Assembly: GCF_003427025.1 (NCBI RefSeq) | Contig: NZ_QVAI01000005.1 | Location: 372,001 to 436,000, forward strand | Length of the DNA stretch: 64,000 nucleotides | Direction of reading: 5' to 3' | From: Jiangella endophytica | GTDB lineage: Bacteria > Actinomycetota > Actinomycetes > Jiangellales > Jiangellaceae | Shown here: positions 7,100 to 24,427 of the stretch, one piece after another | Layout: every line of letters begins with the position of its first letter | Position numbering within the stretch: position 1 is the stretch's first letter | Made by a program: the position numbers and the translations under genes | Notes under the pieces: generated by a model | Database searches by the model: none | The model's input: only the letters and a program-made list of their open reading frames with translations | What the model was told of the DNA's origin: nothing

Positions 7100-8025
7100 C
7101 CCTGACCGCCAGCCCGCCGTCGACCGACGGCGGGCCGGAGGTCGCCCGCCGCCGGTCCCGCCGGGCGAGCGTCCCGTACCTGCTGCTGGTGCCGGCGCTG
7201 CTCTTCTACGCGTTCGTGGTGCTGTGGCCGACGCTGCAGGGCGCCGGGTACGCGTTCACCGACTGGGCCGGACGACGGGAGACGCCGGGCTTCGTCGGAC
7301 TGGACAACTTCACCGAGCTGTTCTCCGCCCCCGCCGCCCGCTCCGCGCTGCGGAACACGCTGGTCATCGCCGTCTCGACCACGATCGTGCAGACGCTGGT
7401 GGGCCTGGCGCTCGCCCTGGCGCTGCACTCGGCGCTGGCCAGCCGGAACCTGCTGCGGACCATGTTCTTCGCCCCGGCACTGCTGCCGCCGGTGATCATC
7501 GGGTTCCTCTGGCAGTACATCCTGACCCCGGCCGGTCCGCTGAACGACGCGCTCGGCGCTGTCGGGCTCGGCGGGCTGGCCCAGAACTGGCTCGGCGACT
7601 CCTCGGTGGCGCTGGCCAGCGTCATCGGCGTCATCATCTGGCAGAACGCCGGCCTCACGATGGTCATCTACCTGGCCGGGCTCGAAGGCGTGCCGCCCGA
7701 GCTGCACGAGGCGGCCACGATGGACGGCGCCGGGCGCTGGCAGCGGCTGCGGCACGTGACCCTTCCGCTGCTCCTCCCGGCCACGACGATCGCGCTCTCG
7801 CTGACGCTGATCGGCAGCCTCAAGCTGTTCGACCAGGTCTACGTCATGACGGGCGGCGGCCCCGGCTACGCGACCGAGACCCTGTCCGTCGTCATGTACA
7901 AGGAGGCGTTCGTGTCCGGCCGGTACGGCTACTCCACGGCCATCGCGCTCGTCCTGACGATGATCGTCTTCGCGTTCGCGCTGCTCCAGCTGCGTGGCCT
8001 GCGCCGGTTCGAGGTGCAGCAGTGA
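7096..8025 (+). CDS. ABC transporter permease (MalF/UgpA-like)
   Basis: 309 residues from a GTG overlapping the binding-protein stop (GTGA). It has six predicted membrane helices. The cytoplasmic EAA loop is visible as LHEAATMDGAGRWQRLRHVTLPLL around residues 210-235, the contact site for the ATPase. It pairs with the next gene as a heteromeric channel. No ATPase gene is present in the operon; actinomycetes commonly power such importers with a shared MsiK-type ATPase encoded elsewhere, which is inferred here. Confidence 0.93.
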   Translation: MTLTASPPSTDGGPEVARRRSRRASVPYLLLVPALLFYAFVVLWPTLQGAGYAFTDWAGRRETPGFVGLDNFTELFSAPAARSALRNTLVIAVSTTIVQTLVGLALALALHSALASRNLLRTMFFAPALLPPVIIGFLWQYILTPAGPLNDALGAVGLGGLAQNWLGDSSVALASVIGVIIWQNAGLTMVIYLAGLEGVPPELHEAATMDGAGRWQRLRHVTLPLLLPATTIALSLTLIGSLKLFDQVYVMTGGGPGYATETLSVVMYKEAFVSGRYGYSTAIALVLTMIVFAFALLQLRGLRRFEVQQ

Positions 8026-13384: not shown

Positions 13385-14545
13385 CTAGCGCGGTCGCGCC
13401 GGCCGGGGATCGATGAAGGGCCGGGGTCCGCCGTCCGTCAACCGGGTCAGGAACAGGCCGATGCCGGCGGCTCCGGTGGCGTAGTCATTGGAGATCTTGT
13501 CCAGCGATCGGCTCGGCCAGGCCGTTCCCTTCTCCTTCGGGACGCGGAACCACGAGATCGTCTCCGCCACGTCCAGCGCCCAGTCGGCATAGCGTGGCTC
13601 GGCCGTCGCCCGGTACAGGTCGAGCATCAGCTCACCGATGCCGGCCAGCCCGTCGAACAGCCCGGGACTGACCGTGAACTTCACGTACGCATCCGTGCAG
13701 ATCCTCGCCGCGAGCTCCGCATAGCGCCGGTCGTGCGTGCCCTCGAAGAAGCGGACCACCGCGCTGCCCACGCCCGCGCTCCCGTGCAGCCAGTAGGGCC
13801 GCAGCAGGTCGTCGCCCTCGAACCGGCGCCACAACCAGCCCAGCTCCGTCTCCGTGCGCGCCTCGAGATCGAACTCGAGGCCCCGTACCGCCTCACTCAG
13901 ATAGGCGGTCGTGCCGGTGGCCTGGTAGAGACGGAGGAGGTACACGGCGATGCCGCTCGCGCCGTAGCCGAGTCCGTAGTGCACCCGATCGTCCAGGCCA
14001 CACCGCCAGGCGGTTCCGCCGTCACGCCGGGCTCCGCTCGCGATCAGGTGGTCACCGGCGCGGACCGCCCAGTCCAGGTACGTCTGCTCCCCGGTTGCGG
14101 CGTACAGGTGGAGATCGACGAGTCCCCACCCGGCGGCGCCCACCGCGATGCCCGGATCCGTGAAGAGCAACGGCGACCGCCGCTGCTCCCGCATGATGCG
14201 CGCCGCCTCGGCGACCAGGCCGAGTTCGGCGAACGTGTACGCGACGCCCGCGAGCCCGAAGAAGAGGCCGGGCGGGTAGGAGTCCGAGTCGATCTCGTGC
14301 GCCAGCATCCAGTCGACGATGGGCTCGGGAACGCCGGTCGTGGTCTGGCTGAGGAGGAACAGGGCCGTGCCGCAGGCGCCGTAGGCGACGTTGAGCGGAT
14401 TCGTGGTGTAGACGGCGGCGTCCGCCGGCCAGAGGCGATCCGTCCGGTCCGGGTCGGCGGTCGACAGCACGTAGTCGACGGTCCCGCGGCGCAGCGCCGA
14501 GAACTCGCCCGGCCGGGGCCGTGCCGACGCCCCGTCGCCGGTCAC
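13385..14545 (-). CDS. Stand-alone LanC-like cyclase domain of a class III lanthipeptide synthetase
   Basis: 386 residues from the GTG at 14545, which overlaps the upstream stop as GTGA; GTG 14560 is an alternative. It is an (alpha/alpha) toroid with repeated GxxG turns: NVAYGACGTALFLL, GLFFGLAGVAYTFAEL, GYGASGIAVYLL, WLHGSAGVGSAV, GLFDGLAGIGELML and TGAAGIGLFL. The zinc ligands of class I/II/IV cyclases are absent: the WCHG position is WLHG and the CHG position is FDG. That is the class III condition. In known class III enzymes this domain is the C-terminal third of one LanKC protein; here it is its own gene. Role: ring closure by Cys addition to dehydroalanines. Confidence 0.85.
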   Translation of the reverse strand: MTGDGASARPRPGEFSALRRGTVDYVLSTADPDRTDRLWPADAAVYTTNPLNVAYGACGTALFLLSQTTTGVPEPIVDWMLAHEIDSDSYPPGLFFGLAGVAYTFAELGLVAEAARIMREQRRSPLLFTDPGIAVGAAGWGLVDLHLYAATGEQTYLDWAVRAGDHLIASGARRDGGTAWRCGLDDRVHYGLGYGASGIAVYLLRLYQATGTTAYLSEAVRGLEFDLEARTETELGWLWRRFEGDDLLRPYWLHGSAGVGSAVVRFFEGTHDRRYAELAARICTDAYVKFTVSPGLFDGLAGIGELMLDLYRATAEPRYADWALDVAETISWFRVPKEKGTAWPSRSLDKISNDYATGAAGIGLFLTRLTDGGPRPFIDPRPARPR

Positions 14546-16041
14546 GTCGCGACCCGCCACTCGCGCAGAAGGGCCTGCGCCGCCCGCGGCCGGCCGTCGA
14601 CGAGCAGATGGATGAGCTGCCGGACCTCGTCAGGCACGCCGAGGCGGACGAACCGGTCGAGGAACAGCTCCATGGCGCCGGGCTGGAGCCCGAAGAGCGG
14701 GTTCACCGGCACCACCGCGTGGTAGAGCACCATGGCGGCGGCGTAGAAGTCGTCGTCCGGGCCGAGTTCGCCGCGCTGCCCGCGGTCGGGCGCCGCGAAA
14801 CCCGGGGTGCGCCACGCGGCCGCGAACCCGCGAATCTCCGGCCCGTCGTCGACCGTGACCGCGCTCTCGAAGTCGATCAGGCCCACCTGCTCGCCGTCGT
14901 CGTCGATCATGACGTTGGCCGGCGACAGGTCGCCGAGCAGGACACCGCGCTCGTGGACGGCGAGCACCATCGCGATGAGCCGCTCGGCCACGTGGGTGAA
15001 GAGTGGCAACCATTGCGCGAGCCGGTGCGGCCGCCGGATGTAGGGCGCCAGGATGATCTCGTTCCGGGCCCAGTAGTGCCGGAGGCTGCGCCCCGGGAGC
15101 CGCTGCTCGACCAGGAACGTGTGTCCGCTGTCCTCGAAGATCTCGACGACCGTCGGCACGAAGGGCAGCCCGGCGAGCCGGCGCAGGATCGCATGCTCCC
15201 GGTGCAACAGGTCGACCGCGTCCCAGGTGGTCTCGCCGATGCTCCAGTGGTGGGTGAACGGGCGGGCCTCCTTGATGATGACCGGTGTCCGGCCGGCCGC
15301 ATCGATGCCGACGTAGATGCCGCCCGCGTTCGAGAAGCTGACGGCCGACTCGATGGTGTAGCGGCCGTTGAGGGCGAGGGACGAGTCGACGTTGATCTCG
15401 CCGCTGCGGCCGAAGGGGTCCTCGACCCAGCCGGGCAGCTGGAAGTACGGTCGCCGGTCGTCGGGCTCGAACACGCCGGCCGGCGACACGAGGCACGGGG
15501 TGTGTGTGCCGTCGAGGTTGACCCGTTTCGGCGAGGAGAAACCGCCGTATCGGTAATGGACGACCGAACTGTCCTTGTATCGTCGGTCGGAAAGTATGTG
15601 CGGACCGACGACACCGGCAGATCGGGTCGCCTGATAAAGCTGCTCTATCAGTCCTCGAAACGCCGCGTCGTCGGGTGGGTAGATCGTAATGAATTTCCCC
15701 GATCCGCCCCGCGACTGGCGTTTAGAATTCAGCACCTGCAAGATCGTCGGATCGCCGGCGACCTTGAAGTCGACGCGCCAATCGGCGCAGATCGGCGCGA
15801 CGACTCCGAGGACGGTCGACGCATTCTGTGGAATCGCCGAGATGTGTATCTTGAAACCCTGCTGGCGCTGCGTTCCGGAGCCGGAGTCCTCGGGCGTGGC
15901 ATGAAGCCAGACGTCATACCTGCTGATCAGCCAGTTGTCCGGGAGCAGCGTCAGCAGTTGGTTGCTGTACTCGTCAGACGGCGGGCGGCTGGCCAGCGGC
16001 TCGAAGACGTACGGGTGCCAGAAGAAGTTCGGCGCGCGCAT
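14542..16041 (-). CDS. Class III lanthipeptide synthetase, lyase plus kinase part
   Basis: 499 residues. The N-terminal phospho-Ser/Thr lyase region (about 60-170) has GFKIHISAIPQN, RGGSGKFITIYPPDD and PHILSDRRYKDSSVVHYRYGGF, all typical of RamC/LanKC. The kinase domain (about 230-480) has Lys257 in VIIKEARP, the catalytic loop GVLLGDLSPANVMID (Asp371, Asn376) and a DFE triplet (Asp390). The protein stops where the cyclase normally follows; that domain is encoded by the next gene. Role: phosphorylates and dehydrates Ser/Thr of the precursor. It lies 42 bp downstream of the precursor gene. The ATG at 16041 lacks a clear ribosome site, so the start is slightly uncertain. Confidence 0.9.
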   Translation of the reverse strand: MRAPNFFWHPYVFEPLASRPPSDEYSNQLLTLLPDNWLISRYDVWLHATPEDSGSGTQRQQGFKIHISAIPQNASTVLGVVAPICADWRVDFKVAGDPTILQVLNSKRQSRGGSGKFITIYPPDDAAFRGLIEQLYQATRSAGVVGPHILSDRRYKDSSVVHYRYGGFSSPKRVNLDGTHTPCLVSPAGVFEPDDRRPYFQLPGWVEDPFGRSGEINVDSSLALNGRYTIESAVSFSNAGGIYVGIDAAGRTPVIIKEARPFTHHWSIGETTWDAVDLLHREHAILRRLAGLPFVPTVVEIFEDSGHTFLVEQRLPGRSLRHYWARNEIILAPYIRRPHRLAQWLPLFTHVAERLIAMVLAVHERGVLLGDLSPANVMIDDDGEQVGLIDFESAVTVDDGPEIRGFAAAWRTPGFAAPDRGQRGELGPDDDFYAAAMVLYHAVVPVNPLFGLQPGAMELFLDRFVRLGVPDEVRQLIHLLVDGRPRAAQALLREWRVAT

Positions 16042-16083
16042 CGCACGAACAATGTGCTGTTGTCGGCGTTCGGTGCGGCACGG

Positions 16084-16275
16084 CTACTGAGGCGCAACCT
16101 CTGGTTCGGCACGCATGACGGCGCAGTGATTGCTGAACGTGCTGTTGCCGCAATGATCCGAAACGCCGCTGTTGGCGAACCCTCTGCCGCCTTCCGCATC
16201 GGAGACATCCAAGCGCTGCAGTCCGAGCATTTGCTCCAGCCTGTCCAGGCGAGCGCTGAGGTCGTTGTCTGCCAT
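16084..16275 (-). CDS. lanA: Class III lanthipeptide precursor peptide
   Basis: 63 residues, with a GGGGGG site seven bases before the ATG at 16275. The leader MADNDLSARLDRLEQMLGLQ contains MLGLQ, matching the conserved LLxLQ recognition motif of class III leaders. The core holds two repeats, NSGVSDHC and NSTFSNHC, each Ser-x2-Ser-x2-Cys, suited to a labionin or lanthionine ring (Ser36/Ser39/Cys42 and Ser45/Ser48/Cys51). Most described labionin motifs have three residues before Cys. A 12-residue tail AVMRAEPEVAPQ follows. The modifying genes lie directly downstream on the same strand. No protease or ABC exporter gene is in the locus. Confidence 0.88.
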   Translation of the reverse strand: MADNDLSARLDRLEQMLGLQRLDVSDAEGGRGFANSGVSDHCGNSTFSNHCAVMRAEPEVAPQ

Positions 16276-16310: not shown

Positions 16311-16339
16311 ATCGTAGTCCCAGGAAAATGGGTTGACAA
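16311..16339 (-). promoter_or_regulatory. Promoter of the lanthipeptide operon
   Basis: On the minus strand TTGTCA (16339-16334) and TACGAT (16316-16311) are separated by 17 bp, close to the vegetative sigma consensus. Transcription would begin near 16304, giving a leader of about 29 bases before the precursor ATG. Confidence 0.6.
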
Positions 16340-17741: not shown

Positions 17742-18373
17742 GTCCGCGCGGATGGCGCCAAGGAGCTGGTCGCGCTCGATGACGGTCAACGCGAGTCCAC
17801 CGAGTCCTGGGCCGGCCTGCTCCGCTGCTGCAAGCGCCGCGGGATGCGCGCTCCGGTGCTCGCGGTCGGTGACGGTGCGCTCGGGTTCTGGGCCGCGCTG
17901 CGCGACGTGTTCCCCGAGACCCGAGAACAGCGCTGCTGGTTCCACAAGATCGCCGACGTGCTCAGCGCGCTGCCCAAGTCCGCCCAGCCCGGCGAGAAGG
18001 CGGCGCTTGCCGAGATCTGGAACGCCGAGGACCGCGAGCATGCCCAGGCCGCCGCCTGGACGTTCGCCGACGCGTACGGAACCAAGTGGCCCAAGGCCGC
18101 CGCGAAGATCACCGACGACCTCGATGTGCTGCTCGCGTTCTACGACCACCCGGCCGAGCACTGGATCCACCTGCGCACCACCAACCCGATCGAGTCCATC
18201 TTCGCCACGGTCCGGCTCCGTCAGCGGGTCACCAAGGGACCCGGCTCCCGCGCTGCCGGCATCGCCATGGCCTTCACGCTCGTCGAGTCCGCCCAACGCC
18301 GCTGGCGCGCCGTCACGCGCCCCACCTCGTCGCCCTCGACCACGAGTCAGGAGATGACGCTCAAGCCGCGTGA
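17742..18373 (+). pseudogene. IS256-family transposase, 5'-truncated and frameshifted
   Basis: About 190 codons of the C-terminal half survive. The in-frame part runs from VRADGAKELVALDDGQRES through GDGALGFWAALRDVFPETR, QRCWFHKIADVL and HLRTTNPIESIFATVRLRQR, unmistakable IS256 transposase; it retains the downstream catalytic-region Glu but lacks the N-terminal third and first Asp region. A frameshift near 18315 moves the ending APHLVALDHE into another frame. No terminal inverted repeats were recognised, so this is a dead fragment left among the tRNA-Asp insertions. Confidence 0.85.
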
Positions 18374-18413
18374 ACACTCGATCTATGGGTGGCCAACGAG
18401 ATCTGCCCGCTGA

Positions 18414-23689: not shown

Positions 23690-23795
23690 TATCCCTCTGC
23701 GAACTGCGACGACGCGCGACGTCAACTGATCGTGCGTCGTCTCGACTGAAAGTGAGACTGCTGTGTCTGCTGAGCTTCTGCCGTACGCTGGGACT

Positions 23796-24050
23796 ATGTC
23801 CGAGATGCCGGTGCAGGACGCGAAGGATCACCTCAGCGAGGTGATCAGCCGAGCCACGTCCACCGGGGAGGTCATCTACCTGACCGACCACGGGGAGCGC
23901 CTGGCTGCCATCATGCCGGCGGAACGAGCCGCCGTCCTCGATGGCCTACTTGCCGTTGAGGAGTTCGAGGCCGAGCACGGACCGATCCCCGTCGACGAGG
24001 CACGCAAGGCACGCGACGTGCTGGTCCGCGAGGGTGTCATCACTGACTGA
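23796..24050 (+). CDS. Antitoxin, Phd/YefM (prevent-host-death) family
   Basis: 84 residues. The N-terminus MSEMPVQDAKDHLSEVISRA with VIYLTDHGERLAAIMPAER is the Phd/YefM DNA-binding fold, and the acidic C-terminal half would wrap the toxin. A -10-like TACGCT ends six bases before the ATG at 23796, so the message may be leaderless. The stop overlaps the toxin start (TGATG). Such antitoxins neutralise the toxin and repress their own operon. Confidence 0.88.
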   Translation: MSEMPVQDAKDHLSEVISRATSTGEVIYLTDHGERLAAIMPAERAAVLDGLLAVEEFEAEHGPIPVDEARKARDVLVREGVITD

Positions 24051-24427
24051 TGGGCATCACTTACGACACCGGCGCGTTGGTAGCGGCGGAAGCCAATCGT
24101 GTCGACATCTGGGCCTTGCACCGTGACGCGCTACGGCACGAGATCCGCCCGGTCGTCCCTGCCGCCGTACTGGCGCAGGCTTGGCGCGGCGGCCCGCAGC
24201 ATCAGCTCTCCCGTTTGCTGCGTGGCTGCAAGATCGAGCCGATGACCGAACAGCTCGCCCGCGAGGCCGGTGCTGCGTGTGCCGCCGCGAGAACCAGCGA
24301 CGTTGTCGACGCCACGGTCGTCGTCTCGGCCCTGTCACGCGGCGACCTCGTCATCACCAGTGATCCCGGCGACCTCGCCCACTTGGCCGATGCGGTCAAC
24401 AGGTCCCTTCGCCTGCATAGCGTCTGA
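24050..24427 (+). CDS. vapC: PIN-domain toxin (VapC-type RNase)
   Basis: 125 residues, coupled to the antitoxin. The PIN acidic residues appear in ITYDTGALVAAEAN (first Asp and Glu), RTSDVVDATVVVSAL (central Asp pair) and LVITSDPGDLAHL (C-terminal Asp), matching a metal-dependent RNase that cleaves tRNA or rRNA when freed from the antitoxin. Role here: element maintenance and/or phage defence. The pairing of a Phd-type antitoxin with a PIN toxin is common in actinomycetes. Confidence 0.88.
   Translation: MGITYDTGALVAAEANRVDIWALHRDALRHEIRPVVPAAVLAQAWRGGPQHQLSRLLRGCKIEPMTEQLAREAGAACAAARTSDVVDATVVVSALSRGDLVITSDPGDLAHLADAVNRSLRLHSV

Follow-up and report, generated by a model that had tools for sequence, protein, structure and literature searches.

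The stretch analysed here (the window) comprises 64,000 nucleotides of Jiangella endophytica contig NZ_QVAI01000005.1 (assembly GCF_003427025.1, positions 372,001 to 436,000), and its minus strand carries a class III lanthipeptide locus in which the modifying synthetase is divided between two genes. The precursor gene (16084-16275) encodes a 63-residue LanA peptide with a class III leader containing LGLQ and a core of two units. The second gene (14542-16041) encodes a 499-residue protein with a phospho-Ser/Thr lyase and a Ser/Thr kinase-like domain bearing a DFE motif, and the third (13385-14545, GTG start) a stand-alone LanC-like cyclase of 386 residues without zinc ligands. Their predicted masses are about 55 and 41 kDa, respectively. 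The cyclase GTG (14543-14545) overlaps the lyase-kinase TGA (14542-14544), so that the sequence at 14542-14545 reads GTGA. Sizes, coordinates and the start/stop overlap are those given in an earlier note on this DNA, and were found to be correct when read from the sequence. A GTG at 14560 is also open and would give a cyclase of 391 residues; an upstream GTG is present too in a second genome of the same genus, G005 (genomes are numbered G and loci L). The start at 14545 is favoured because G005 has an ATG exactly at the place of that GTG, its junction being ATGA at the position of the window's GTGA.

The two proteins match complementary parts of NF038151, the 833-position NCBIfam model for class III LanKC. 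The lyase-kinase covers model positions 10-454 (427.7 bits) and the cyclase positions 478-832 (265.4 bits), and the gene break therefore falls in the inter-domain linker. Neither half alone reaches the equivalog cut-off of 575 bits. Pfam assigned RamC_N (2.9e-56) and Pkinase (7.9e-13) to the lyase-kinase, and LANC_like (4.8e-25) to the cyclase. The best solved-structure match of the lyase-kinase was the LanKC 8sao (E = 5.7e-55), and the cyclase matches LanKC cyclase domains in the Protein Data Bank. The locus thus has the RamC_N-type lyase, the Ser/Thr kinase-like domain and the LanC-like cyclase without a Cys-Cys-His zinc site that define class III, and departs from the class in that the three domains do not lie in one polypeptide; they are distributed over two genes, as they also are in G005 and in another 12 split pairs belonging to the clade described below. 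Seven matches to NF038151 were obtained in the window's genome, ie these two halves and five weak ones to parts of the kinase region, and that search found no further LanKC there.

Multi-protein, phospho-dependent dehydration is a feature shared with class V systems (LanK and LanY, with LanX or LanC), which also use separate kinase and lyase proteins (PMC9486802, PMC12291118). However, class V parts its kinase from a HopA1-type lyase, whereas here a RamC_N-type lyase is joined to the kinase and only the cyclase is separate. Class IV (LanL) cyclases bind zinc and the window cyclase has no ligands; moreover, NF038150 scored below NF038151 for both halves. A place in class IV or class V was rejected on the absent zinc ligands and the fusion of lyase and kinase domains, and we regard it as very improbable.

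Conserved residues were compared in an alignment of 29 lyase-kinase rows and in another of 29 cyclases, split and fused. Lyase residues K64, H66, K116 and R164, and kinase residues K257, D371, N376 and D390, were invariant in all 29 rows, and R111 and E392 nearly so. Window positions K64, R164, K107, K116 and D390-F391-E392 correspond to K65, R163, K108, K117 and the DFE motif of ThurKC, where K65 and R163 are reported as essential and the others as important (PMC10604976). The zinc ligands of NisC (C284/C330/H331) align with S726/F770/D771 of ThurKC and with L253/F297/D298 of the window cyclase, which bears out the earlier claim that the ligands are missing; the triad was found in none of the 29 aligned cyclases. 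The position of D298 holds Asp or Glu in nine of ten clade cyclases aligned, and Ser in Nonomuraea cypriaca. In ThurKC, the D771A and F770A substitutions each abolished the labionin signal (PMC10604976).

The predicted precursor core consists of two S-x2-S-x2-C units, SGVSDHC and STFSNHC. This agrees, together with the LGLQ of the leader, with the LxLQ-type leader and SxxSx(2-5)C core expected of a class III precursor. LxLQ-type leader motifs are typical of such precursors. SapB/AmfS (RamS) precursors likewise have two ring units per core, but those of SapB follow the pattern SxxSxxxC, whereas the window units are SxxSxxC with DH and NH ahead of the Cys. Model matches of the precursor were weak and below cut-off: lanthi_III_b at E = 1.3e-4 (22 of 30 bits), lanthi_III_a at E = 0.0031 (18.1 of 22 bits), and RamS at E = 0.0098. 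The predicted core is the same in G005 and similar in N. cypriaca (NSGASDHC GNSAYSNHC). Twenty-three loci and the window were searched for matches to [ST]xx[ST]x(2-5)C; the labionin motif is given as SxxSx(2-5)C (PMC11251773). All 16 members of the clade in the concatenated tree had a small frame with two pattern matches near the lyase-kinase. Candidates in L048 and L049 had one match only, and the scan gave no plausible precursor in L046, L047 or L060, although another scan gave a weak candidate in L047. The pattern does not distinguish split from fused forms, since the fused L040, L045 and L120 carry it too. Among the listed clade cores, a His directly ahead of each Cys (SDHC, SNHC) was seen only in the window, G005 and N. 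cypriaca. It raised the idea of His-butyrine cross-links, as described for the noursin-type NorKC (PMC10206099), which was set aside.

The closest relative found, G005, shares all three genes, with identities of 77% for the lyase-kinase and 80% for the cyclase. The ratio of nonsynonymous to synonymous substitution (dN/dS, Nei-Gojobori) between the two genomes was 0.297 over the 499 codons of the lyase-kinase, 0.295 over 379 codons of the cyclase and 0.030 over the 63 codons of the precursor. Both halves are under similar purifying selection, and because G005 keeps the whole arrangement under such selection, the two-gene form is more than a chance event. In three other genomes of the genus (L010, L011 and L012) the LanKC is fused and belongs to another clade, a distant one.

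A search of the family (22 genomes, the same 22 being returned for the order; E ≤ 1e-40) gave matches in five, two of them split (the window and G005) and three fused and distant. Searches at the level of class, genus and phylum scored three first-look candidates per genome, and the counts are therefore lower bounds. At least 20 of 393 genomes of the class had a match at E ≤ 1e-60; at least three of these were split (the window, G005 and G384, which carries one split and one fused form) and the remainder fused. For the genus of G384 the figure was at least 6 of 392 at E ≤ 1e-100, made up of five split forms and one fused form (G600), and on the same three-candidate basis a match at that threshold was found among 396 genomes of the phylum in the window's own genome only. 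Scanning genome contigs with alignment A1 revealed 172 loci encoding a relative; the scan gave no match with a single protein as query. The best 80 of the 172 were kept, a choice which may have left out split forms that are more distant. The 80 comprised nine split loci (L035-L039, L042-L044 and L047), 67 fused, one decayed split-type locus (L041), two with broken frames (L054 and L091) and one cut by a contig end (L074). L091 was classed as broken on account of a long first frame and a second one with only half a cyclase. Split pairs were found in Streptomyces, Nonomuraea, Streptosporangium, Corallococcus, a Chloroflexota metagenome-assembled genome (MAG) and an Anderseniella MAG. Plasmid records gave 30 matches; the 20 listed were at most 38% identical, with 17 annotated as LanKC or LanL and three without an annotated feature.

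Twelve of the 14 split members of the clade have the order precursor, lyase-kinase, cyclase. The exceptions are both Nonomuraea: N. sediminis (L042, 4544-7434) has the order cyclase, precursor, lyase-kinase, and in N. cypriaca (L036, 3795-7506) the cyclase is on the opposite strand. The cyclase therefore behaves as an independent gene. The earlier note took the locus to be a real two-gene arrangement and not a damaged fusion, and the independent split genomes, with the selection seen against G005, support this. Damage or a sequencing error in this strain might be suspected, because the halves abut at a linker where one indel could part them and because a decayed split-type copy exists in Streptomyces griseoluteus (L041). 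Against it stand the same split in G005 and in 12 further pairs of the clade, an offset between the genes which varies by lineage, the rearranged order in Nonomuraea, and a dN/dS of about 0.30 in both halves. A sequencing error hiding a single fused frame is excluded by independent genomes showing the same split and by the relocated cyclases of L036 and L042; nor is this strain alone split among fused relatives, its closest relative being split too. Damage and error were accordingly rejected, with practically no likelihood left to either. We take the split to be a real natural variant because the same two-gene form recurs in bacteria of several phyla. In L041 itself, the lyase-kinase frame is broken and the cyclase is interrupted.

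A working enzyme that is still fused, the halves being joined in translation by a frameshift at the overlap or by read-through of a stop, was considered as well. In the Caldilineaceae locus L035 and the Anderseniella locus L037 the cyclase frame continues that of the lyase-kinase past a single TAG (7474-7476 in both), with an ATG nine bases on, and read-through of that codon is conceivable there from the frame relation. Elsewhere the relation differs: the genes overlap in the window (GTGA) and in G005, but the Streptomyces pairs have a four-base gap and another frame, and no common signal was apparent by eye. L036 and L042 do not even have the cyclase gene downstream of the lyase-kinase. Joining in translation was thus rejected as a general mechanism, and we consider it very improbable.

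For the trees, duplicate rows (L001, L002, L008, L009, L013, L115 and L118, the last an exact copy of part of L038) were dropped, as were unrelated kinases (L003-L007) and L074, L054 and L091. The lyase-kinase tree (106 rows) grouped 14 split members, L041 as a seventeenth row and the fused L040 and L120 with a Shimodaira-Hasegawa-like approximate likelihood ratio (SH-aLRT) of 99. The cyclase tree (105 rows) grouped the same 14 split and two fused members with a support of 92, and in a concatenated tree of 31 of the 105 rows the 14 split pairs and two fused forms made one clade (support 100/99). Of the 15 split pairs in the trees, 14 belong to this clade; L047, from an Acetofilamentum MAG, is split but lies outside. 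The earlier note had asked whether the split genes form a clade. They do to the extent that 14 pairs group together, but two fused members are nested among them, L120 (G600, Streptomyces) and L040 (Flavobacteriales), hence later re-fusions. A strict clade of split genes was rejected by the approximately unbiased test (p = 2.2e-53 with the 14 split rows forced as a clade, p = 0.026 with L120 added), because L120 and L040 nest inside.

By parsimony on the concatenated tree, one fission and two re-fusions make three changes, compared to at least four from a fused ancestor; a single old fission is therefore favoured by one step, but not proved. The clade takes in Actinomycetota, Chloroflexota, Pseudomonadota and Myxococcota, with Bacteroidota as a fused form, and this spread suggests horizontal transfer; Chloroflexota, Pseudomonadota and Bacteroidota are each represented by one metagenome-assembled contig. 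L120 is an open frame of 910 codons with the halves joined by a short linker, and is likely a re-fusion.

We interpret the locus, with a probability of about 0.8, as a two-protein class III lanthipeptide synthetase that carries out dehydration and ring closure as a complex, with the cyclase probably stimulating dehydration. The precursor would dock on the enzymes through its leader. The kinase is expected to phosphorylate Ser and Thr of the core and the lyase to eliminate the phosphate, giving dehydro amino acids, after which the separate zinc-free cyclase would close each SxxSxxC unit to a lanthionine or labionin ring. The complex of the two proteins would probably be short-lived and bound to the precursor, with the same arrangement as fused LanKC enzymes maintain by covalent linkage. 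Most likely the peptide that the two proteins produce jointly has two SxxSxxC rings. Leader docking, the chemistry, the ring type, complex formation and any dependence of dehydration on the cyclase are deduced from conserved residues and from ThurKC. The reading gains from the complementary match of the halves to NF038151, from the conservation of residues that matter in ThurKC (with D298 at the place of its D771), from the similar purifying selection on both halves, from the activity that ThurKC halves regain on mixing, and from their counterparts here falling in the same clade, and the natural fusion in Streptomyces G600 within that clade is consistent with partners that work together.

Several points count against this interpretation. 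Sequence does not allow the type of ring to be predicted. The trees of the two halves agree on the clade but disagree on some branches within it: the lyase-kinase tree puts L040 outside the 13 nearest split pairs, the cyclase tree among them. A Pfam scan of 21 neighbouring genes, from the window, L033, L034, L038 and L044, recognised no protease among them, and only one was exporter-like, an ABC transporter of G005 at a distance of about 10 kb from the precursor (L034, 1-1278; ABC_tran 3.3e-31).

The part played by the cyclase in dehydration was judged from ThurKC. When ThurKC was cut into residues 1-486 and 487-872, the lyase-kinase alone was inactive, and became active once the cyclase was added in trans; a stable complex between the halves was not detected, and most of the cyclase-domain mutations tested affected dehydration (PMC10604976). 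Other isolated class III and IV domains are reported as active in the same source. By analogy with these split-half results, the odds lie somewhat on the side of the cyclase being needed for dehydration too. The alternative is a pair of independent enzymes that work one after the other, in which the lyase-kinase fully dehydrates the precursor by itself and the cyclase only closes rings, with neither a complex nor an influence of the cyclase on dehydration; it differs from the two-protein complex in the last mechanistic step only, and the two odds overlap. Separate genes, on opposite strands in L036, permit independent action, but the inactivity of the ThurKC lyase-kinase alone and the effect of most cyclase-domain mutations on dehydration argue against it, and halves of the same clade with a natural re-fusion suggest cooperating partners. 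Independent enzymes are thus a weaker but serious contender. A more elaborate proposal, in which the synthetase is obligately two-component, the free zinc-less cyclase both closing rings and activating the lyase-kinase in trans, and in which fission occurred once and was followed by transfer between phyla and at least two re-fusions, can be put forward tentatively, with the balance rather against it.

The solved LanKC structures (ThurKC 8sao, 8sap and 8sam; 9wop; 8car; SalKC 9ugq) have the same three domains in the same order, the same lyase and kinase motifs and a zinc-less cyclase, but are single polypeptides, whereas the window cyclase is a separate gene product. The divided ThurKC comes closer, being cut in the corresponding linker into two polypeptides which are active (PMC10604976); it was made in the laboratory, whereas the two-gene forms of the window and its clade occur in nature. 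Full-text searches of open-licence papers turned up no description of a class III synthetase that is naturally split, and its novelty is provisional. Such loci are probably under-reported. In one mining study, a cluster was assigned to class III or IV only if one protein matched both LanC-like and kinase models, and other clusters were set aside as unclassified (PMC7268733), a rule which would leave split clusters unclassified. At its cut-off NF038151 also misses both halves of all four split pairs scanned, each half of three other pairs falling below it as in the window. On control among the three LanKC domains, ThurKC gives a mixed picture: its halves work only together, and yet a stable complex was not observed (PMC10604976). 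A natural pair of evolved partners, with re-fusions in the same clade, makes domain cooperation testable with native proteins, and the two-protein form should ease the swapping of cyclases.

A candidate promoter (TTGTCA-17 nt-TACGAT, minus strand, 16311-16339) was picked out by pairwise alignment with G005 and a pattern check. It lies 35 nt ahead of the start codon of the precursor gene, against 34 nt in G005. The two genomes share both hexamers and the spacing, and the spacer differs at 6 of 17 bases; the hexamers do not stand out because the bases 3' of them are conserved too. Near the cluster, at 17844-18413, is a partial Mutator-family transposase (Transposase_mut, profile positions 228-377 of 379), which suggests past mobility. 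A gene pair encoding a Phd/YefM antitoxin and a PIN-domain protein lies at 23763-24427, and in G005 (L034, 9577-10566) a PIN_3-like gene, below cut-off, and a helix-turn-helix gene lie upstream of the precursor.

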